This document shows, in pieces, positions 1-14,439 of a DNA stretch of 16,175 nt; within the stretch, counting starts at the first letter, position 1, and every line of letters begins with the position of its first letter. The notes under the pieces are model-generated. The model had not been told where the DNA came from. It worked only from the letters and a program-made list of their open reading frames with translations, and did not search any database. The DNA lies in assembly GCA_026692885.1 (NCBI GenBank), contig JAPLNJ010001061.1, forward strand, positions 1 through 16,175, in the 5' to 3' direction. The position numbers and the translations under genes were made by a program. This stretch comes from Planctomycetota bacterium (GTDB lineage: Bacteria; Planctomycetota; Planctomycetia; Pirellulales; Pirellulaceae).

Positions 1-182
1 AGCCACTGGGCGAACTTGCGCACGGCGCGGAGGTAGGATTCATGCGTCGGCTCGGCCAGGCCGGCCAGCTGCATGTCCTGGAGCATCTGCTGAGCGAGGG
101 GGGTGAGGGGAATCCCTTTTCGCCGAGCGGGGGTGGACGAGGGGCGCACGGGTCGGCTAGAATTGGGGGCACGACGGGTCAT
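1..182 (-). CDS. Tyrosine recombinase/integrase, N-terminal part (cut by window edge)
   Basis: The 60 visible codons start at an ATG whose first base is 182, preceded by a good ribosome site (AGGAG about 9 nt upstream). After a Pro/Arg/Ser-rich leader comes LTPLAQQMLQDMQLAG, then EPTHESYLRAVRKFAQW. This is the N-terminal SAM-like DNA-binding (core-binding) domain of tyrosine recombinases; the catalytic R-H-R-Y part lies outside the window. The wording (MLxDMQLxGL...T.ESYLRAV) resembles the integrases that accompany IS91-family transposases more than classical IntI N-termini, which lack the QMLxDMQ phrase. Its position is nevertheless that of an integron integrase: divergent from, and directly beside, an array of attC-like sites. 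Recombinase identity is fairly sure; the subtype is open. Confidence 0.8.
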   Translation of the reverse strand, partial: MTRRAPNSSRPVRPSSTPARRKGIPLTPLAQQMLQDMQLAGLAEPTHESYLRAVRKFAQW

Positions 183-353
183 GGGCAGGTACTCCTGAGA
201 AAGCCTCCGCGGACGCTGCGTGCCGAAGTGGCGCGCGGGAATCCGTCGCGGTCAGGAGAACTGTGCGTTGCGGGATGTGTGAGAGCAAAGAAATGTCTGT
301 CGTTGGCCGTGCTGATTCGTCAGGCAGCACGGGTCCGCCGCGACAGCGGCTTA
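183..353. other. Intergenic stretch between recombinase and array; expected attI position
   Basis: There is no gene here. It carries the ribosome site of the divergent recombinase and, in an integron, would hold attI and the cassette promoter Pc. I found no convincing GTTRRRY core (GTTGGCC near 302 and GTTGCGG near 268 both deviate) and no clear promoter pair. The 5' boundary of the first cassette cannot be placed. Its R'' box would predict a start of TTCAAG after G, and that string is absent. Confidence 0.3.
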
Positions 354-443
354 CTTGAACTAGCGGATGGACCACAGCGGCCGACATGGTCCGGGATTGA
401 ATCAAGGCGGATGCCGGCCGCGTGGTCATCCGTGTCGTTACGA
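354..443 (+). other. attC-like recombination site a
   Basis: R'' is CTTGAAC (354-360) and R' is GTTACGA (437-443). The arms 364-387 and 411-432 pair as a 22-bp stem with two single unpaired bases on the 5' arm (G at 369/370, A at 376), one A-C mismatch (384/414) and a 23-nt loop. Spacers between boxes and stem are 3 nt and 4 nt. The geometry matches site c almost base for base. R'' and R' share only the AAC/GTT core, so the upstream cassette was probably not born with the current R' neighbour. The predicted crossover is between 437 and 438. Confidence 0.75.
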
Positions 444-736
444 TTCCTGTCCCCGTGTGCTGAATGGACCGGTCGGTGGTGGGGCATCGTCGGCCGGCGT
501 GCATGGCCATAAGGGCCGTTTGCGGCGCACAAGTCAACCGGCAGGGAAGGGCACGCCACTGACGGTGCTCAAGTCTGTCACGATGGAAGGCCAGATGGTC
601 GGCGGCTGGATCAAACGCTTGCCGTCTGGCCCCGGTTGATGGCCGCTCGCCGGGCAGCGCGGTATACTGACCGCGACAAACAAAGCCAAGCTCGCCCACG
701 GCTCCACGCTCGGCGGCGTGGCGCGGAACGGGTATG
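444..736 (+). repeat. Cassette leader repeat, copy 1 (5' part of cassette 2)
   Basis: A non-coding leader, nearly identical in long blocks to 1460-1706, starts immediately after the predicted crossover of site a and ends at the shared GAACGGGTAT. Copy 1 has about 40 extra nucleotides (around 545-583) that copy 2 lacks. Several GC-rich inverted repeats are present (for example around 495-520). Both strands have open frames through it, but neither shows a ribosome site or protein-like conservation between the two copies. It probably provides the promoter/5' UTR of the toxin-antitoxin genes starting at 818. The rest of the gap, 737-817, is unique sequence ending in the GGAGG ribosome site. Confidence 0.7.
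663..668 (+). promoter_or_regulatory. Possible -10 element (TATACT) in cassette leader
   Basis: TATACT is conserved in both leader copies (here and at 1634-1639), 150 nt upstream of the antitoxin start. A TTGATG at 636-641 is the nearest -35-like hexamer, but the 21-nt spacer is longer than usual. Toxin-antitoxin cassettes in integrons normally carry their own promoter, which is the reason to look here. The call is weak. Confidence 0.3.
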
Positions 737-817
737 GATTCCACGGCGCTGCATCTTCGCGTACACTGTATGCTGTTGGGAGCCAAGCCCGACCCATGAT
801 CCCCTTCGGAGGATGCC

Positions 818-1039
818 ATGATTCAAACTGTGGAAGCTGTCGTTGATGAACACGGAAAGGTCCAGTTGTTGGAGGCGATCGAATTGACCGTCCCACGACG
901 CGCTCTGGTCACCATCCTCGATGAACGACCGACCCCCTTTGCTGACGAAACCGCGTTGTTGAGCGAAGCCGCATTGGCCGAAGATTGGGACCGACCCGAG
1001 GAGGACGTGGCGTGGTCACACCTGCAGTCGGCGAAGTAG
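818..1039 (+). CDS. MazE-like antitoxin of a type II toxin-antitoxin pair
   Basis: The product is 73 aa, starting at an ATG with GGAGG five nt upstream. The N-terminal half (TVEAVVDEHGKVQLLEAIEL then RRALVTILDE) has the beta-strand pattern of the small AbrB/DUF2281-like antitoxins found beside PemK/MazF toxins. The C-terminal half is acidic (LLSEAALAEDWDRPEEDVAW), as expected for the tail that wraps the toxin. The last 28 nt overlap the toxin start, so the two are translationally coupled with antitoxin first. The role inferred from the family is to bind DNA with the N-terminus and neutralise the downstream RNase, and the complex usually represses its own promoter. In an integron array such pairs are thought to stabilise neighbouring cassettes. 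The gene lies alone with its toxin between attC sites a and b. Confidence 0.8.
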   Translation: MIQTVEAVVDEHGKVQLLEAIELTVPRRALVTILDERPTPFADETALLSEAALAEDWDRPEEDVAWSHLQSAK

Positions 1040-1353
1040 TCCTTGTTCGGTTCCCGTTTTCCGACCTGTCGCAGTCGAAACTCAGACCGGCCGTCTGTTT
1101 GGCGGACGCTGGGCGTGGCGACTGGGTCTTGTGCCAGATTACGAGCAACGCCTATGGGGATTCTCGGGCCATCCCTCTCGATGATCCCGATTTCGTCTCG
1201 GGAGGGTTGAAGGTGGTAAGTTACTCGCGACCCGCGAAGCTGTTCACGGCCCATGAACGGTTGATCGCCAAATCCGTGGGCAAGTTACGCGATGACACGC
1301 TTCGCCGAGTGGTTGATGCCGTGGTGATACTGTTGCAAATAGGTATTCCCTGA
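1012..1353 (+). CDS. MazF/PemK-family toxin (endoribonuclease)
   Basis: The product is 113 aa. I chose the GTG at 1012 because GAGGAGG (998-1004) sits 7 nt upstream and the family's first strand (VGEVVLVRFPFSD) follows at once; a TTG at 985 is in frame but has no ribosome site. Family marks are the N-terminal G-E-V-V-L-V-x-F-P-F-S-D, the KLRPAVCLAD strand with the Arg-Pro that MazF/PemK toxins use near the active site, the central ITSN, and the C-terminal SYSRPAKLFTAHERLI...GKL segment. Known MazF proteins are dimers that cleave mRNA or tRNA at short motifs; the cut site of this one cannot be read from sequence. The stop TGA (1351-1353) lies within the R'' box of attC site b, so gene and recombination site are packed together as in typical cassettes. 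Length is normal for the family, so it is probably intact. Confidence 0.85.
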   Translation: MVTPAVGEVVLVRFPFSDLSQSKLRPAVCLADAGRGDWVLCQITSNAYGDSRAIPLDDPDFVSGGLKVVSYSRPAKLFTAHERLIAKSVGKLRDDTLRRVVDAVVILLQIGIP

Positions 1354-1459
1354 ACGTGTCCCCGGCGGCGCCGAATCAAAGTGGGCACCGGAGCCGCGAT
1401 CCGGGCATGGAAAAATGGAAACGTCATCCGGCGCGGCCCGGTGACGCCGGTCGTTACGA
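1349..1459 (+). other. attC-like recombination site b (long, less regular)
   Basis: R'' is CCTGAAC (1349-1355), overlapping the toxin stop codon, and R' is GTTACGA (1453-1459). The outer stem pairs 1362-1373 with 1439-1450 (one mismatch, one G-T). An inner hairpin pairs 1393-1398 with 1432-1437 and 1401-1404 with 1428-1431, with AT bulged. The two single-base bulges of the other sites are not clearly present. Its ~111 nt fall within the known attC size range. The position, and the return of the leader repeat directly after its R', are the best support. Crossover is predicted between 1453 and 1454. Confidence 0.55.
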
Positions 1460-1706
1460 TTTCTGTCCCGGTGTGCTGAATGGACCGGTCGCTGGTGGGG
1501 CATCGTCGGCCGGCGTGCATGGCCAGAAGGGCTGCTCGCGGCGCACAAGTCAGTCGGCATGGAAGGCCAGATGGCCCGCGGCTGGGTCAAACGCTTGCCG
1601 GCTGCCCTGATGGGCGCTCGCCGGGCAGCGCGGTATACTGACGGCGACAAACAAACCCAAGCTCGCCCGCGGCTCCACGCTCGGCGGCGTGGCGCGGAAC
1701 GGGTAT
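1460..1706 (+). repeat. Cassette leader repeat, copy 2 (gene-less cassette 3)
   Basis: Second copy of the leader at 444-736, again beginning just after an attC crossover and again ending at GAACGGGTAT. Instead of genes, only 18 nt follow before attC site c, so the whole cassette (1454-1808, 355 nt) is leader plus attC. No open frame with a ribosome site is present on either strand. It could be a cassette that lost its genes by internal deletion, a promoter-only cassette, or a source of a small RNA. Together with the flanking attC sites it accounts for the gene-free gap 1354-1858. Confidence 0.7.
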
Positions 1707-1724
1707 CGAGGGCGTAAAAGAACA

Positions 1725-1814
1725 TCGTAACCATCGGATGAACCACAGGCGGCGGCATGGTCCGGGATGGAAATAGGCTGGATGACGCCGCCGTGGTCAT
1801 CCGGGTCGTTAGGC
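1725..1814 (+). other. attC-like recombination site c
   Basis: R'' is TCGTAAC (1725-1731) and R' is GTTAGGC (1808-1814), the latter a full match to the GTTRRRY core. Arms 1735-1758 and 1782-1803 form a 22-bp stem with two unpaired A residues on the 5' arm (1741/1742 and 1747) and one G-A mismatch (1755/1785). Spacers are CAT and GGTC. R'' is the exact reverse complement of GTTACGA, the sequence formed by joining G to the first bases of this same cassette (1454-1459), as expected for a circularised cassette. Confidence 0.8.
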
Positions 1815-1858
1815 CAAGCAAACGTCCGCTGTGATTCCCGTTACCATGGACACCGCAA

Positions 1859-3007
1859 ATGGATGCTACAGCCCCAAGCACCCCGCAATTCGCCGTCTTC
1901 TACGGCTACCAGTTTACCACTCGCCAGTTTGATCCCGAGCTGCTGAAAGAGACCCTTGCGGACGCATGCAAGCAAGCTGAGGCAATCGTTGCTCGCCAGC
2001 ACGGGATTACGGTTGCTATTGTCGCAAAGCGGTTCGAACCGGTCGTGGGTGGCCTTCTGTTGGGAGAGTTGAAGGAGGCCATTGAATCGTCGGTACTCTG
2101 CGTGTTTGAAGTGTCTGATCGCAATCCGAACGTATTCCTAGAGGCTGGATATGCCATGGCCGAAAGGAAGCGTGTCGTGTTGATGGTGAATTCGGAGGCA
2201 CAGAACGAGATCCCGTCGGATGTGAAAGGTATAACGTACCTTCCGTACGAGAAAACCAATCTTCGCAAGTCACTCGACATTTTGGCCAACATCGTAGCTG
2301 ACGAGGTGTGGCGTCACATTGCACAGCGGCCTCTCGAACAGTGGTTCTGGGAACCAATCGTATCGTCACCTGTCGACGTCTTTCTGGGGCGGACCTCGGA
2401 AGATAATTTCTCATGGGGTGATGTGTTCGCCTTGGACACCATTCGCACACATCTCCAAAAGCAGGAAATGCTCCGTCTGAACCTCGAAAGTGAGATCAGA
2501 GGCAATATCCTGGAACGTAATGTCATTTCGATCGGCGGACCACGACGAAACGGAATAACCAAGTCCCTTCTCGATGTTATCAGCGGCAGAACGCGCTATT
2601 GTTTTTTGGATGCGAACGATCCGCAGCACGGCGAGCTAGTCCAGGAAAAGAATCTTCGCGATCCTTACGTCATCTACAACAAGGAGAGTCGCCAGTGCTT
2701 TGCGGCTGAGGTCAATTTCGTAGATCAGCCACGCACCTTCACGACCGGAAAAGACTTTGGGCTTGTCTATCGGCTAACTAATCCACATATGGCAAACGTA
2801 AGGTGGTTGCTTTTTGCCGGAATTAGCCGAGCGGGCACGCTCGCATGCCTTGAGGCAATGGTGAATGCTCGAACGCTTTCGCAGGTCCGAGAAAGGCTCG
2901 AACAGCAAGGAGGCAACGTAGAGGCCGATGTCGAGATTCTGTTTGAAACGCTGATCGTGAACGGGCGAGGTATTGGAAGCTCGCCTAATGACGTCCACGC
3001 TTTGTAG
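1859..3007 (+). CDS. TIR-like nucleotide-binding protein with unassigned C-terminal domain (integron cassette 4)
   Basis: The product is 382 aa. Residues ~11-150 read as a TIR/nucleoside-deoxyribosyltransferase-like Rossmann domain: strand FAVFYGYQF, helix, VAIVAKRF, then VLCVFEVSDRNPNVFLEAGYA (81-98) and RVVLMVN (105-111). E95 in NPNVFLE-GYA is where this superfamily keeps its catalytic glutamate. The C-terminal ~170 residues have VISIGGPRRN (222-231) and DFGLVYRLTNP (299-309) followed by LLFAGISRAGT (317-327). I think I have seen this GG-P-x-N / D-x-G-L-x-x-R-x-x-N-P / AGI...GT pattern as a sensor-like module in multidomain bacterial proteins but cannot name it. No membrane segment is apparent. 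No clear ribosome site precedes the ATG at 1859, 51 nt into the cassette. GC is visibly lower than in the flanking chromosome. An NAD- or nucleotide-processing defence or signalling role is inference only. Confidence 0.6.
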   Translation: MDATAPSTPQFAVFYGYQFTTRQFDPELLKETLADACKQAEAIVARQHGITVAIVAKRFEPVVGGLLLGELKEAIESSVLCVFEVSDRNPNVFLEAGYAMAERKRVVLMVNSEAQNEIPSDVKGITYLPYEKTNLRKSLDILANIVADEVWRHIAQRPLEQWFWEPIVSSPVDVFLGRTSEDNFSWGDVFALDTIRTHLQKQEMLRLNLESEIRGNILERNVISIGGPRRNGITKSLLDVISGRTRYCFLDANDPQHGELVQEKNLRDPYVIYNKESRQCFAAEVNFVDQPRTFTTGKDFGLVYRLTNPHMANVRWLLFAGISRAGTLACLEAMVNARTLSQVRERLEQQGGNVEADVEILFETLIVNGRGIGSSPNDVHAL

Positions 3008-3014
3008 GTACAGG

Positions 3015-3100
3015 GCATAACCGGATGCAATCGAGCGGCGGTTGCGTCTAGCGGTGTGGATGGTCCACCCGTCGCCGCCGATTGATCCCTATCGTTCGGC
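3015..3100 (+). other. attC-like recombination site d
   Basis: R'' is GCATAAC (3015-3021), 7 nt after the TAG of the TIR-like gene, and R' is GTTCGGC (3094-3100). Arms 3023-3040 and 3073-3088 form a 16-bp stem with two unpaired bases on the 5' arm (G3027, A3034), the same spacing as site e. A terminal hairpin GTGGA/TCCAC (3056-3060/3064-3068) fills the loop. The 5' spacer is only 1 nt against 5 nt on the 3' side, which is unusual. The C at position 4 of R' deviates from GTTRRRY. Confidence 0.7.
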
Positions 3101-3145
3101 TCCAGTGGCCCCTAGTCGGCACTTCGGCTTAAGGAGACCTTTACG

Positions 3146-3514
3146 ATGGATCCCGACGTGATTTCCCTTGGTCTTGGCGGATTAACTCCGCTGGTCGATC
3201 CCTTGACTGAGCGCACGAATCTAGCCGACGCGCGGAATAAGATCTCGAGCCTTCGGGATGCGGTGGCGGACCTCGAGCGCCACGTGGACAAACAGGCTAC
3301 CCTCCTGCAGGCGATGTATTCCTTGCTTTCGGAGCGTCTTGGGCTGACGGAGGCCGAATTGCTGGCGCGGTTCCAACAGATCGACGCGGGGCGCGGCGAA
3401 AGCAACGCGGCAATCATGTGTGCGGAATGTGGCAGGCCGGTTGATCTACGACACAATCGCTGTCTGTATTGCGGTGCGGCGCGTCAGGTCAAATCGGCGT
3501 TCGAGTTGCTGTAA
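3146..3514 (+). CDS. Small coiled-coil protein with C-terminal zinc ribbon (integron cassette 5)
   Basis: The product is 122 aa. The ATG at 3146 has AAGGAG about 9 nt upstream, so translation looks strong and independent. Residues ~24-80 are predicted helical with a heptad feel (ARNKISSLRDAVADLERHV, then LLQAMYSLLSERLGLTEAEL), suggesting a coiled coil or helical hairpin and oligomerisation. The C-terminus has a treble-clef/zinc-ribbon style CxxC...CxxC (C92, C95, C106, C109: MCAECGRPVD then RCLYCGAAR). I do not recognise a named family. Similar short proteins that end in one zinc ribbon are common orphan cassette genes. No signal peptide or membrane segment. It is the only gene between attC sites d and e, and the TAA is 12 nt before R'' of site e. 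Reality of the gene is well supported; function is unknown. Confidence 0.75.
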   Translation: MDPDVISLGLGGLTPLVDPLTERTNLADARNKISSLRDAVADLERHVDKQATLLQAMYSLLSERLGLTEAELLARFQQIDAGRGESNAAIMCAECGRPVDLRHNRCLYCGAARQVKSAFELL

Positions 3515-3526
3515 GATGCGGGCGAA

Positions 3527-3619
3527 GCCGAACTATGAAGGATGCAGGCGCGCGGGGGTAAGGTGGGTTGCCGGTGGTGGCGTCTTCCCGTCCCCGCCGC
3601 CTGATCCTGGTCGTTCGGC
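3527..3619 (+). other. attC-like recombination site e (last site of the array)
   Basis: R'' is GCCGAAC (3527-3533) and R' is GTTCGGC (3613-3619), exact reverse complements. Arms 3540-3558 and 3591-3607 pair for 17 bp (last a G-T) with two unpaired bases on the 5' arm (G3544, C3551). Spacers are 6 and 5 nt. The stem plan GGAT, bulged G, six pairs, bulged base, GCGG is shared with site d and nearly with a and c. No further attC follows. Confidence 0.8.
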
Positions 3620-3822
3620 CCCGGCCCTGCGAGGCATCGCAACGGTCGCGGAGCGACGAGGAGGTGGCGCGCCGCTGGTGGAATCTGTTTCCAGGACGCA
3701 AGACCGAAGGCGACACGCCGGCCGAACCGGAGCCTCACGAATTGGCAACGCTCTTGGCGGATGGCGAGGCGTTACTCGAACGGCGGCAGCGGCTGTCGAG
3801 CATCTCCTGGCTGATGCGATGA
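3601..3822 (+). pseudogene. Fragment of REP-associated tyrosine (Y1) transposase
   Basis: The in-frame segment reads SDEEVARRWWNLFPGRK, then AEPEPHELATLLADGEALLE, then RRQRLSSISWLMR before a stop at 3820-3822. This is the middle of the large Y1_Tnp/REP-associated transposases I recall from planctomycetes (SDEEVARRWW...ISWFMRCLAEPIARRAN). The HUH (His-x-His) strand upstream and the catalytic Tyr helix and C-terminal part downstream are missing, and no ribosome site or sensible start exists, so it is a dead remnant. The preceding LILVVRPRP could be the strand after the HUH motif; if so, homology runs into the 3' arm of attC site e. It marks the right end of the array and may be the scar of an insertion that truncated it. 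Confidence 0.7.
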
Positions 3823-3957: not shown

Positions 3958-4109
3958 TCGGCCTTGTGATTCTCCTGCCAACGTGGTTCGCCGGGCTCCG
4001 GAGGTTTGCGAGGCGGGAACTCGGAGCATCCCCACTCTTCGCGAGGGTAAACCGTCGGCTACCCGTCGCTCGCGGTCGTCGGATGAACGTGTTCCCCATG
4101 CATTCGGGT

Positions 4110-5333
4110 CTATTTCTTGTCCGCGAGGAGGTCCCCGCTCGGCAGTTTCGTGGTGGACGATTTGCTGATGGTCAGTTTGCTCATGGAACTGATCTTGGAG
4201 TCTCCGCGGATAAAACTCTCGGCGGCCAACCGTTCCTCGGCTGCTGCGGCGCGCACCGCCAGGATGGCATCGAAATCGAAATCGATGGGCTTGCGCTCCG
4301 CCAGCGGTTCCAGGTAGTGGCTCAGTTCGGCTGCCGTCTGGAACCGATTCTCGGGGTGTTTGGCCATCATCTTCTGCACGATTCTCGCGAGCCGCTCCGG
4401 AACCGCCGGGTTCAGTGCGTGGACCAGCGGAGCCTTCTCCTGGCGATGCCCCGCCAGTTTCTCGGCGACGGACTTGCCTAGAAACGGGGGCCGGCCGGTG
4501 AGCAGAAAATAGAAGGAACAGCCCAGACTGTAGATGTCGGCGCGGCGATCGACGTGCAGGCTGTCCCGCGACTGTTCCGGCGAAATGTAGTCGGCGGTGC
4601 CCAGGCAGTCCTGGCCCTGAATCATGGCCATCGAGTACTCCGCCTCGCTGCGCTCGACCATCGCCAAGCCGAAGTCCAGCAACTTGAGCGTACCGTCGGG
4701 CCGGATCAGCAAATTCTCGGGCTTGACGTCCCGGTGGACGAGTCCTTGTTCGTGAGCGTAGTGCAGACCGGCGGCGGTTTGGACGATCATGTCGCAGGCC
4801 TGCCGCCAAGCGAGCGTGCGTTTGCGGATTTCCAACAACTCGTGCAGACTGATCCCTTTGACCAACTCCAAGACCATGTAGTGCAGAACCCCGTAGATGT
4901 CTTCGCTGGTGTTCAGGGACTTGGTCCGCACAAGGTTCGGATGGTTCAATTTCAGGCCGGCTTCGGCTTCCAGGCGAAATCGTGAAAGCATGCCGCTGTC
5001 ATGCCGATGTCGGTCAGAGAGCACCTTCAGAGCGACTTTCCAGCCGGTTTTCAGGTCCTCCGCCGCGTACAGGTACCCCATGCCGCCAAAGCCGAGGATT
5101 TCGATAATTTTGTAGTCGTCAAGGAACAGGCCACGCCGAGAGCCGGCCAACAGACGATTGGCTTGGTAGCGCGTCAGCAGGCCGCAGGCGACCAGCGCGT
5201 CCGCTACGTCGTCGGGCGCGAGCATGTCCTCCAGCCCATACTTCTGGACGGCGGTTTTCAGTTCGCCGTTGGGAAACAACCGGCTCTTTTTCAGCAGCGC
5301 CAGAAATTCTGCTGCGGTAGTCAAAGCCGCCAT
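4110..5333 (-). CDS. Soluble Ser/Thr protein kinase (planctomycete type)
   Basis: The product is 407 aa from the ATG at 5333, chosen over an in-frame GTG at 5339 because GAGGT lies 4 nt upstream of the ATG and overlaps the GTG. An N-terminal ~70-residue helical region (FLALLKKSRLFPNGEL...LLTRYQANRLLAG) is typical of planctomycete kinases. The Hanks kinase domain follows with all key motifs: glycine loop GFGGMGYLY (~82-90), VALK with K103, HRDVKPEN (200-207), DFG (220-222), GTADYISPEQ (245-254) and DIYSLG (266-271). Activity is therefore likely. The Ser/Thr-rich C-terminal tail (FIRGDSKISSMSKLTISKSS) could be an autophosphorylation site. No transmembrane helix, PASTA, WD40 or TPR module is present, so the input is not encoded in the protein. 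It lies downstream of the ABC ATPase with a 128-nt spacer and may be transcribed with it or separately. Substrates are unknown. Confidence 0.93.
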   Translation of the reverse strand: MAALTTAAEFLALLKKSRLFPNGELKTAVQKYGLEDMLAPDDVADALVACGLLTRYQANRLLAGSRRGLFLDDYKIIEILGFGGMGYLYAAEDLKTGWKVALKVLSDRHRHDSGMLSRFRLEAEAGLKLNHPNLVRTKSLNTSEDIYGVLHYMVLELVKGISLHELLEIRKRTLAWRQACDMIVQTAAGLHYAHEQGLVHRDVKPENLLIRPDGTLKLLDFGLAMVERSEAEYSMAMIQGQDCLGTADYISPEQSRDSLHVDRRADIYSLGCSFYFLLTGRPPFLGKSVAEKLAGHRQEKAPLVHALNPAVPERLARIVQKMMAKHPENRFQTAAELSHYLEPLAERKPIDFDFDAILAVRAAAAEERLAAESFIRGDSKISSMSKLTISKSSTTKLPSGDLLADKK

Positions 5334-13043: not shown

Positions 13044-14276
13044 TCACTTCCCGCCCGTCAATGCCGTCCGGATCTCCTGAACGCTCACGCCCAGCGTCTT
13101 GGACGAAATGGTGCTGAGCTGCTGTTCCGGCCCTTGGACGTGCAGCGTGCGGTGGACGTGAGTCAGCGACTGGCCGGGTGCCAAGGCGGCGGCCGGGGAC
13201 GAACTCTCAAGTTCGTAGAACGGTCCCATCGGCTGCTTGCCGGGGGCTGGCGGGCCATCGTTGTAGCTGTTGACGACGTCGCCCGCATACGGCTGTTTTT
13301 GAAGCTCCCACATGGAGTTCACATAGTCTTTCGCACCCTTGGGCAGCGTGTACTGGACTAGCGTCAACAGCTTCGACTCCGCCGCGTAGCTGCCCAGCAG
13401 CGGTTTCGCCCGCTGAGGGCTGATGCCGATCTTGCTGCGGTACTTGCCGTCGCCGCTGAAGAACAAGTGCTGCTCGCCGACCTGCAATCGGTCGGCGGGA
13501 ACTTTGCCGAAGTAGGCGTCATTCACTTTCGGTCCGAGCTTTTCCTCGGGGCCGCGCTGGAACGGAATGGCCACCGTGGTCTGCTCGGACGGCTGATACA
13601 TGCCTAGAATCCAAATCGACAGCAGGCCGCGGTCTTTGGTCCAGGCTTGGCTACCGGTGTTGGTCAGGCGATTCTCGGATTCGTAAGCCACCAATCCCAG
13701 GCCCGATCCGATTTCCACCCCCAACAATTCCGCCACTTTGGCGCGCGGCAGGAGACGCACGCTCCGGTCCACGGTCAACTGGAATTCGGTCCCGGAGTAA
13801 TTCACCAACTGGATGGCTTTGCGAAAGCGGGCCTCGGTCTGCGACTGCGAGACGATCTCCCATGCGCCCCAGTCGATGGCCTCGGGTGTCTGCCATTGCT
13901 CCAGGGTGAAGGCGTCGCCCTGGCGGAAGAAGATCGAGTACTGGCCGCCTTCGGGTCCCAGCCAGAAGCGATCTTCGCCGCCGAAGACGTTGATGTGCGG
14001 CTTCCGCGTGCCGTCCGCAATCGCCTGGCGATTGATCCAGCCGTAACTGGGGCCAGCCGGCCCCGCGGCCGTACTCGTCATGACGCGGCCCTGGTATGCG
14101 GGTATCACCGCGACCTGTGCCTGACCAGAGTCATCTGCTAAGACGAGCACGGGGACATGCTTCTTCATAAACGCCACATCCTCGCCAAAGGTGCCGGCTC
14201 GGCCTTCACACGCCCAGCCCACCAGTAACGAACTGCACAGTCCGACGGACCTGATCCACCAATTTGACAATCGCAT
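13044..14276 (-). CDS. Exported DUF6786-like protein
   Basis: The product is 410 aa from the ATG at 14276, with AAGGAG 9 nt upstream; the longer in-frame start at 14417 is rejected. A signal peptide is visible (LSNWWIRSVGLCSSLLVGWACEG, cleavage probably near residues 22-28). The mature part begins FGEDVAFMKKHVPVLVLAD and contains AYQGRVMTSTA, GWINRQAI, HINVFGGEDRFWLGPEGG and WQTPEAIDWG. These match what I remember of DUF6786, a family of exported proteins frequent in Planctomycetes and Bacteroidetes and resembling carbohydrate-active beta-sandwich proteins. No activity is established to my knowledge. A periplasmic or surface sugar-related role is inference. Length looks complete and no frameshift is seen. 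Confidence 0.8.
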   Translation of the reverse strand: MRLSNWWIRSVGLCSSLLVGWACEGRAGTFGEDVAFMKKHVPVLVLADDSGQAQVAVIPAYQGRVMTSTAAGPAGPSYGWINRQAIADGTRKPHINVFGGEDRFWLGPEGGQYSIFFRQGDAFTLEQWQTPEAIDWGAWEIVSQSQTEARFRKAIQLVNYSGTEFQLTVDRSVRLLPRAKVAELLGVEIGSGLGLVAYESENRLTNTGSQAWTKDRGLLSIWILGMYQPSEQTTVAIPFQRGPEEKLGPKVNDAYFGKVPADRLQVGEQHLFFSGDGKYRSKIGISPQRAKPLLGSYAAESKLLTLVQYTLPKGAKDYVNSMWELQKQPYAGDVVNSYNDGPPAPGKQPMGPFYELESSSPAAALAPGQSLTHVHRTLHVQGPEQQLSTISSKTLGVSVQEIRTALTGGK

Positions 14277-14439
14277 GACAAGGAGCTCCTTTCGAGTTGT
14301 GAGATTTGCGGGACACTGCGGTGCTGCGGTAGTCGAGTGACCGCCAAGTAGGTCAGCTTTTCCAGGCTGACGTTTTTCTCGTTCCCAGGTTCTGCCCTGA
14401 AAACGTACCTGGCCCAAGTGCGACTCTTCTTGCGATCTT

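Follow-up and report, generated by a model that had tools for sequence, protein, structure and literature searches.

The window, by which we mean the whole 16,175-nucleotide stretch of DNA analysed here, very probably contains one end of a Planctomycetota-type integron cassette array that has been invaded at the R'' box of its first attC site by an IS91-like element with an accessory tyrosine recombinase. The N-terminus of the recombinase, the terminus of the element and the attC site that it abuts are all observed in the window, as are the structure and common orientation of the attC sites, while related arrays display covariation of these sites and their association with IntI. The element itself is deduced from 60 residues and one terminus because its IS91 transposase lies outside the window; judging from relatives, this Y2 transposase would be located past the contig end.

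Five attC sites separate the cassettes

The five palindromes, which lie within 3.3 kb, are integron attC sites separating cassettes. A covariance model (R2), for which 22 attC sites of nine other genomes of Planctomycetota and no window sequence were used, retrieves exactly five sites at 47-58 bits, the next best hit having 9.9 bits, and all five are on the plus strand where the preliminary description had placed them. R2 and a further model built without the second site (R1) were made within this analysis and are not IntegronFinder's own. The first site, attC 1 (354-443; R2 50.3 bits, E 1.6e-10 over 365-443), has two bulges, a stem starting at 365 and the core GTTACGA at 437-443, and its R''-like box CTTGAAC (354-360) is supplied at the element junction. 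It is followed on the same strand by attC 2 (1384-1459; 47.2 bits, E 8.3e-10), with a degenerate outer stem and the core GTTACGA at 1453-1459, attC 3 (1736-1814; 50.3 bits, E 1.5e-10), with two bulges and the core GTTAGGC at 1808-1814, attC 4 (3023-3100; 58.0 bits, E 2.6e-12), with two bulges and the core GTTCGGC at 3094-3100, and the array's last site, attC 5 (3540-3619; 56.3 bits, E 6.3e-12), with the two-bulge plan and the core GTTCGGC at 3613-3619. A GTT core thus ends every site; the palindromes, imperfect and with extrahelical bases confined to a single arm, are clean in four sites and degenerate in one. No relevant match was found in Rfam, nor did a blastn search of plasmids with positions 330-3640 return any.

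An exact-pairing plan of 4-6 bp, one unpaired base, 4-7 bp, a second unpaired base and 5 bp, with both bulges on the 5' arm, occurs at four places on the plus strand of the window (stems from 365, 1736, 3023 and 3540) and at none on the minus strand, as compared to four hits in total in 40 dinucleotide shuffles scanned on both strands, or about 0.1 per window. Folded as plus-strand DNA, these four stems have z values of -4.1, -3.7, -2.7 and -2.8, respectively, equalled by 0 to 2 of 200 shuffles. The outer stem of attC 2 is lost and its fold is no better than that of shuffles (z -0.9 on the plus strand and -0.4 on the minus strand); R1 recovers this site at 16.3 bits (E 0.0087, filters off).

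Structure is kept over sequence in the 22 related sites: both sides change in 13 of 16 pairs, and 94.2% of cells are paired against 69.1% in shuffles, none of 500 being as good, a result that is biased in favour because the sites were found through a window-seeded model and aligned to its structure. The alignment used (A7) leaves out the five window sites, as well as four hits of poor or short appearance, two in L114 and one each in L115 and L116.

In three Planctomycetota genomes (G046, G279 and G196), the same attC type is accompanied, at distances of 0.8 to 3.2 kb, by integrases scoring above the TIGR02249 cut-off, and in G216 by a partial one. In a fifth genome, G328, a gene judged IntI-like by its similarity to that of G046 (40.9% over 330 residues) forms an array with 11 same-strand attC sites, which also holds three copies of a 2.65-kb IS91-like element. 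That the palindromes might be generic, of the REP or terminator kind, is an idea to which we give almost no credence, and the R2 scan largely refutes it: all are GC-rich stem-loops and attC 2 folds no better than chance, but the bulge code, the GTT core, the same-strand arrays beside IntI, the covariation and the finding of exactly five sites in 16 kb argue against it. The preliminary description of an integron-type cassette array, with five attC-plan palindromes, a two-bulge code confined to the 5' arm in four of them and conservation of structure rather than sequence, is therefore borne out by the covariance model (above background at all five sites), the plan scan, the compensatory changes and the neighbouring integrases. 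By itself, the array is an ordinary integron array.

Cassette contents

The same description spoke of single-gene units, which holds in part. The first unit starts with an apparently non-coding repeat copy (426-745, plus strand) and contains a toxin-antitoxin-like pair: a possible small antitoxin gene (818-1039, plus; NF050107 13.9 bits, well under the cut-off of 70) sits upstream of a PemK/MazF-like toxin ORF (985-1353, plus; PF02452 27.0 bits, cut-off 23.1), whose true start may be further in. No gene was recognised in the unit at about 1460-1735, which repeats 426-745 in diverged form (of 320 alignment columns, 245 are identical and 45 are gaps); its repeat copy (1442-1716, plus) appears to be a non-coding cassette.

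The next cassette gene (1859-3007, plus) codes for a 382-aa protein with a CAP12/PCTIR-type TIR domain (PF10137 26.9 bits, cut-off 24.7). It matches a TIR effector of PADLOC (32.9 bits) and has five other relatives in a word-based search; a search for viral relatives found none. From these similarities the protein is probably an anti-phage effector, and such a cassette agrees with the idea that integrons carry defence genes. The last cassette gene (3146-3514, plus) codes for 122 aa with a zinc-ribbon-like C-terminus (PF12773 21.4 bits, below the cut-off of 27.3).

An origin in a probable planctomycete, also put forward earlier, is plausible but short of proven: the attC sites are of a planctomycetal type, but the best relative of PtsP is only 37% identical in the one phylum searched, a pattern search for PtsP in genome contigs yielded no relative, and the relatives listed for the neighbouring DUF6786 protein include at least 80 loci at 53-64% identity in many phyla.

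The left border of the array

A tyrosine recombinase gene diverging from the cassettes is cut by the left end of the window, leaving its N-terminal 60 aa (3-182, minus strand). The fragment scores 25.8 bits against PF13495, just under the cut-off of 27, and this family also matches IntI proteins; no NCBIfam match was obtained even at E 10. Its resemblance is to the recombinase of an IS91-family element present in G328 in seven copies beside an IS91 transposase (45% over 44 residues, E 1.4e-6). The reverse search from this recombinase returns the window fragment (E 9e-6), while two IntI queries, and likewise a second IS91-type recombinase (G299), give no window match at 1e-4. Pairwise alignment of the 60 residues gives 78 with a relative in G167 and 18-52 with four IntI N-termini. 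A tblastn search of plasmids with the fragment was empty, and the P0001 query found nothing at E 0.001 in 15 attC or PtsP genomes.

The region from the recombinase start to attC 1 (183-360) ends in an IS91-like terminus (337-360, plus) made of a hairpin, GCCGC-GACA-GCGGC (337-350), followed by TTACTT and GAAC (357-360). It abuts attC 1, its AAC doubling as the R'' box of that site. The same kind of terminus is present in G320, in the seven copies in G328 and in a viral contig of IMG/VR (L263). A short terminus pattern matches 10 of 372 Planctomycetota genomes, the hairpin being present in G328 and G320 only, and at least 120 stretches of viral contigs, where the hairpin occurs in one (L263) of the 80 read; a stricter pattern retains 14 viral stretches. 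In relatives, the recombinase is followed by a Zn_Tnp_IS91/Y2_Tnp transposase, which in G328 scores 205.8 bits against NF033538 (cut-off 125) and in G320 and G152:C147 was recognised as an IS91 transposase by similarity. The terminal hairpin and fixed end of the IS91 family are represented by one terminus in the window, beyond which the other end of the element lies, and by both ends, fixed in all seven copies, in G328.

We conclude from sequence similarity that the recombinase appears not to be IntI but to belong to an IS91-like element, as its accessory tyrosine recombinase. An intI gene divergent from its cassettes is the classical integron arrangement, and the preliminary description suggested that the recombinase was the integron's integrase. 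A plain integron, with IntI diverging from its own cassettes and an attI site within 183-360, would agree with the PF13495 similarity and with the divergent geometry of IntI in G046 and G279. We nonetheless consider it very unlikely: the N-terminus is closer to recombinases of IS91-like elements and lacks any NCBIfam match at E<=10, the IS91-like terminus occupies the expected place of attI, and no more than some 180 bp separate the recombinase start from attC 1, which leaves a first cassette gene little space. Neither intI nor an attI platform is visible within the window at this border of the array.

Termini of related elements at attC sites

Relatives of the element are found at attC far more often than chance. 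An attC-plan stem with a plan score of at least 9.9, a threshold chosen after the scores were seen, follows 11 of 28 termini (10 of 27 without that of the window) against 19 of 3998 random sites; at 13.4 or above, these numbers are 9 of 28 and 0 of 3998. The 28 consist of 20 termini, five distinct ones (L358 repeats L357) and three more, with L361, which has no scored terminus, counted as a miss. To be admitted, an end had to have the hairpin-tail-AAC form, the tail being cut at CAA, one base earlier, in the last three. Left out were plasmid loci with other or no recognised ends (L331, L332, L345-L353), genome loci without a matching terminus (L334, L335, L337, L339, L340, L342), G299 and G336, where no terminus was recognised by eye, G245, a second IS91-like element seen by eye in L160, and the G328 copy L182, whose right flank is that of L181. 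Also kept out were the 13 viral stretches other than L263 picked by the stricter terminus pattern alone, at whose termini R2 detects no attC. The plasmid sample covers 19 of 358 records with a recombinase match. The 3998 sites come from loci L001-L080 and are unmatched in base composition; a first null of 1474 sites, drawn from the very loci that carry the termini, attC sites included, has a 99th percentile of 10.6 and a maximum of 17.

The plan score demands a GTT core and misses some attC sites. It gives only 2.2 for the G320 terminus, which R2 finds at an attC of 29.5 bits, and conversely 13.4 for that of G152:C147, missed by R2; both kinds of error therefore occur. R2 also places termini at attC in G152:C226 (39.1 bits) and in L263 (39.4 bits, plus further sites). 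Among plasmid relatives, plan scores reach 9.9 in Salinivibrio, 15.3 in Photobacterium toruni (10.6 for a remnant) and 14.0 in E. coli RCS41_p, between aadA1 and qacEdelta1-sul1. The remaining 17 of the 28 termini are below the attC score, including all five in genomes of other phyla and those of Photobacterium ganghwense and G186; sites that look attC-like by eye in Photobacterium damselae, G167 and E. coli pM216_AC2 are missed. In G328, R2 detects an attC (57.2, 46.0 and 42.5 bits) at the end of three of the seven copies; three others end at a stretch resembling by eye the 5' arm of attC only (two with identical right flanks) and one at neither. Related recombinases on rhizobial plasmids have different ends, not at attC, and some stand beside palindromes. 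Stem-loop targets in general, instead of attC, may lie behind the pattern.

The array could be real and the element captured passively, as an IS inside a cassette shuffled along without any attC targeting. We regard this as unlikely. Several attC-adjacent copies do sit inside arrays, and passive capture is how the available text of a 2025 paper (PMC12772301) treats the attC sites at or after ISCR28, but the junction is at a single position, the AAC of R'', across attC types as unlike as planctomycetal, Vibrionaceae and aadA1 ones, and the seven copies in G328 have different flanks, bar one pair sharing the right flank.

Left junctions have AAC in all 15 readable cases, and AAC is all that the flanks of the G328 and Vibrionaceae loci have in common at the two junctions; it may belong to the element or to the target. 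IS91 inserts beside GAAC/CAAG. Within our preferred explanation of an invaded array, it is thus conceivable, at less than even likelihood, that the Y2 transposase alone targets a short YAAC, the recombinase being a passenger or resolving intermediates. The left junctions fit such a rule and some insertions are away from attC, but a four-base target would meet attC very rarely, as opposed to the 11 of 28 termini seen.

Some IS91-family elements carry an accessory tyrosine recombinase that is not known to have an assigned role. We tentatively propose, as a possibility short of probable, that a group of IS91-family rolling-circle elements homes to attC, with this distant cousin of IntI recognising the folded attC or its inverse core and guiding insertion at AAC, and that the group spans Planctomycetota, Vibrionaceae plasmids and the class 1 integron context. 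In the mechanism proposed for the invaded array, the element would recognise the inverse core RYYYAAC of attC, perhaps within the folded single strand, and insert at AAC, so that R'' is replaced by the end of the element itself, ..GAAC or GTTCAAC. With this end standing in for R'', the downstream attC may remain functional, and the element may travel as cargo of an enlarged cassette. If so precise a link to attC is true, the accessory recombinase gains a role, and rolling-circle transposition is joined to the integron cassette pool, class 1 integrons included.

Comparison with known systems

At least two attC sites less than 4 kb apart with no intI nearby define a CALIN. The array resembles Planctomycetota integrons and CALINs in its attC plan, single orientation, small cassettes including a toxin-antitoxin pair, and attC type shared with arrays beside TIGR02249 integrases, and differs in that its left border is an IS91-like terminus with no IntI or attI visible. 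The element resembles IS91 elements with an accessory tyrosine recombinase in its terminal hairpin, fixed ends and, in relatives, recombinase-then-transposase order; unlike ordinary IS91, which inserts beside GAAC/CAAG anywhere, the present group occurs in excess at the R'' boxes of attC sites. For this comparison with chromosomal integrons and CALINs of Planctomycetota, an attC covariance model is described in the part of PMC8352920 available, and a list of phyla is given in that of PMC8618304.

Elements of other families that target attC, and attC sites beside IS91-like elements, have already been noted in print. According to the available text of PMC11187229, the IS1111-attC group (IS110 family) also inserts at one end of attC, by means of a DEDD transposase with a seekRNA; the relatives of the present element carry instead an IS91 transposase and a tyrosine recombinase, and it is not a member of that group. 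Group IIC-attC introns insert at attC and at other inverted repeats (PMC8876359, in part), and are retroelements, not DNA transposons. Like the present element, ISShvi3 in Shewanella (a single adjacency, PMC9229058) and ISCR28 (PMC12772301) are IS91-like and adjoin attC, and the portions available of these two papers report no R''-box rule or junctions; our search found no published report of such a rule. Should the targeting proposed here be true, it would add a further kind of attC-targeting mobile element to IS1111-attC elements and group IIC-attC introns.

attC sites and the cassette array

The palindromes recognised in the preliminary description are true attC sites, and the array of integron cassettes to which they belong is an ordinary one. 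The window (61% GC over 16,175 bases) is probably the entire contig, since the record for one cassette protein lists a longest contig of that length. An exact scan found four two-bulge sites on the plus strand and none of this plan on the minus strand, against a background of 4 matches in 40 dinucleotide shuffles searched on both strands. A covariance model built from these four sites (R1) also recovered a fifth, weaker site unseen in training (16.3 bits, E 0.0087, filters off), the next match lying at 12.1 bits (E 0.097). The proposed placement of both bulges on the 5' arm holds for the four sites of the exact scan; the fifth is not among them.

R1 was searched against 294 Planctomycetota genomes and gave matches in 12 at E <= 0.01, with further sites nearby on one strand per locus at a spacing of about 470 to 1360 bases. 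We aligned 22 sites from nine genomes (G196, G152, G216, G238, G312, G305, G046, G071 and G279). In this alignment, which was fitted to the model's structure and thus biases the test in favour of covariation, 94.2% of cells are paired versus a shuffled mean of 69.1%, both sides have changed in 13 of 16 pairs, and the covariation score is 0.546 versus 0.137 +/- 0.022 (not equalled in 500 shuffles), a signal abolished by shifting the pairing partner along the alignment. The earlier claim that structure is conserved over sequence is borne out. A second model (R2), made from the 22 sites with no window sequence, whose members were, however, found by R1, matches exactly the five palindromes claimed between 354 and 3619, namely attC 1 to attC 5 on the plus strand (365-443, 1384-1459, 1736-1814, 3023-3100 and 3540-3619), with scores, in that order, of 50.3, 47.2, 50.3, 58.0 and 56.3 bits (E between 2.6e-12 and 8.3e-10) and a next-best match of 9.9 bits (E 0.39). 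Scoring by covariance model had been suggested beforehand; with R2, built here, the five sites stand well above background.

The first cassette unit carries a PemK/MazF-like toxin ORF, with a small ORF upstream of it. A TIR domain of the CAP12/PCTIR type (PF10137, 26.9 bits, cut-off 24.7) marks a 382-aa cassette protein (1859-3007). A word-based search covering 5.8 billion proteins gave five further relatives of this protein at E <= 0.001, and its gene is a rare candidate for a role in defence. A 122-aa cassette protein has a zinc-ribbon-like end, and no gene was recognised between attC 2 and attC 3. Positions 426-745 and 1442-1716 are diverged copies (of 320 alignment columns 245 are identical and 45 contain gaps), both apparently non-coding and each directly following an attC (attC 1 and attC 2), a pattern that would fit duplication of a non-coding cassette and fusion of one copy with the toxin-antitoxin unit. 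Outside the array, 13044-14417 encodes a DUF6786 protein with a 90% relative (P0002) on an 883-kb contig.

Integrases and the window recombinase

The integron integrase family TIGR02249 was searched in 13 genomes (the 12 with R1 matches plus G083). Since some match occurs in all 13 and also in all 14 control genomes, only those over the curated cut-off were counted: 4 of 13 (G214, G279, G046 and G196) versus none of 14. In G046, G279 and G196 the integrase, which has one internal stop in G279, lies 0.8 to 3.2 kb from R1 sites on the same contig and points away from them; a partial integrase in G216 is likewise divergent. Several further arrays, such as those of G305, have no integrase above this cut-off anywhere in the genome. 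Planctomycetota are named in a published list of integron-carrying phyla (PMC8618304), and an attC model for Planctomycetes has been built (PMC8352920); the window array therefore belongs to a known kind.

The array had been described beside a divergent recombinase. The array itself stands. An integrase role for the recombinase is not supported: the fragment in the window, residues 1-60, resembles IS91-type recombinases more than IntI. It scores 25.8 bits against the SAM-like domain PF13495, under the cut-off of 27, and matches no NCBIfam family at E <= 10. Relatives at E <= 0.001 occur in 5 of 392 Planctomycetota genomes, the best being a 356-aa recombinase present in seven copies in G328 (45% over residues 15-58). 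Next to it is a gene for an IS91-family transposase (Zn_Tnp_IS91, Y2_Tnp; NF033538 205.8 bits, cut-off 125). The G328 recombinase itself scores 157.7 bits with TIGR02249, short of the required 265, against 406 for the IntI of G046. As a query it matches the window in return (E 9e-6); two IntI queries and the IS91-type recombinase of G299 miss the window at 1e-4. Pairwise, the fragment scores 78 with its relative in G167, whose contig stops before any transposase, versus 18-52 with four IntI N-termini. Most likely, the window recombinase does not serve as the integron's integrase and is instead the bordering part of an IS91-like element whose insertion site is attC 1.

A probable IS91-like element at attC sites

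The ends of the related element in G328 were defined by comparing its copies, which have a common left end, TAACTAATGAGCG, and a right end finishing in CCGCCGCGCAGCGGCTCACTTGAAC. A right end of the same kind, GCCGC-GACA-GCGGC-TTACTT-GAAC, lies at 337-360 of the window, between the recombinase start and attC 1. GAAC runs directly into an attC in the window and in some of the G328 copies. Three of the seven G328 copies end at an R2 attC (locus L159 at 5541, 57.2 bits, and 9094, 46.0 bits; locus L165 at 4089-4167, 42.5 bits); three meet, by eye, an attC-like 5' arm without a partner, two having one common right flank; the last has neither. Three copies lie inside an array of 11 same-strand attCs with an IntI-like gene, so named by its identity to the IntI of G046 (40.9% over 330 residues). 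By eye, the left end TAACTAATGA in L159 (G328:C1:1099000-1118900) contains stops in several frames and, in one copy or more, a cassette ORF takes its stop codon from it.

Several further members show the same arrangement. In G320 (recombinase 52% identical, transposase 61%) the right end, GCGGCTTACTTGAAC, matches that of the window and an R2 attC (29.5 bits) comes next, although the score for the attC-plan stem (plan score) is only 2.2. On an IMG/VR contig (L263), located solely through the terminus pattern, an attC of 39.4 bits comes straight after the terminus, with two weaker matches further along. On contig C226 of G152 a terminus (2266-2288 of L341) precedes an R2 attC (2293-2412, 39.1 bits); on its contig C147 the plan score is 13.4, with no R2 match there. 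Among plasmids, 358 records had a recombinase match and 19 loci (33-42% identity) were examined. An attC follows the terminus by score in Salinivibrio kushneri, Photobacterium toruni (a full copy and a remnant) and E. coli RCS41_p, where the element has aadA1 on one side and qacEdelta1-sul1 on the other, as part of a class 1 integron setting. By eye, and below score, the flank is attC-like in E. coli pM216_AC2 (intI1 annotated), two P. damselae plasmids and G167; the termini of P. ganghwense, G186 and others have no attC look, and eleven plasmid loci have a different end or none recognised.

Termini were picked by protein or terminus similarity, independently of attC, and hairpin-tail-AAC ends alone were counted. 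The plan score demands a two-bulge stem beginning 1-9 bases past AAC and closing 3-6 bases before GTT. At 9.9 or more, the lowest score accepted as a match and a threshold fixed after the scores were known, we count 10 of 20 termini in the first set, 0 of 5 in genomes of other phyla and 1 of 3 at further plasmid loci, hence 11 of 28 (10 of 27 without the window), versus 19 of 3998 random [GC]AAC sites (loci L001-L080). At 13.4, reached by no random site, 9 of 28 remain. The group is strongly over-represented at attC sites; because 17 of 28 termini fall below the score, attC is either strongly preferred or habitual in one subgroup, and any rule has exceptions.

At three rhizobial plasmid loci (L332, L345 and L346) the ends of related IS91 elements read ..AGTCCAA. 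Near-perfect palindromes adjoin two of these elements and a GTTATGC stretch adjoins two, so these elements may target stem-loops that are not attC.

Junctions and insertion models

AAC stands at the element border in all 15 readable left junctions (seven in G328, six at Vibrionaceae loci, one each in G320 and RCS41_p); single-copy left borders were placed by likeness to AAATAAG, and others, such as that of pM216_AC2, were not placeable. The right terminus ends in AAC too, and the element is therefore flanked by two AAC copies, each of which may belong to the element or to the target. The inverse core of attC has the consensus RYYYAAC, of which AAC is the invariant part. These junctions would fit a Y2 transposase that targets a short YAAC motif; they would fit equally well a tyrosine recombinase that exchanges strands at the site homologous to the crossover of IntI. 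The right end of the Vibrionaceae form, GTTCAAC, is a perfect RYYYAAC and would keep the downstream attC complete.

Comparison with other elements at attC

Within open-licence PubMed Central, where absence is weak evidence, we found no statement of R''-box insertion by IS91 elements with a tyrosine recombinase. On one Photobacterium damselae plasmid the maturase gene of a group II intron (L343, 1-621) adjoins an IS91-like element at a site resembling, by eye, a VCR-type attC. One IS91-like element is reported to adjoin an attC in Shewanella (PMC9229058), and a 2025 paper finds attC sites that lie at ISCR28 elements or follow them (data not shown), with passive shuffling as the process discussed (PMC12772301). 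IS1111-attC elements (PMC11187229) and group IIC-attC introns (PMC8876359) are also described as targeting attC.
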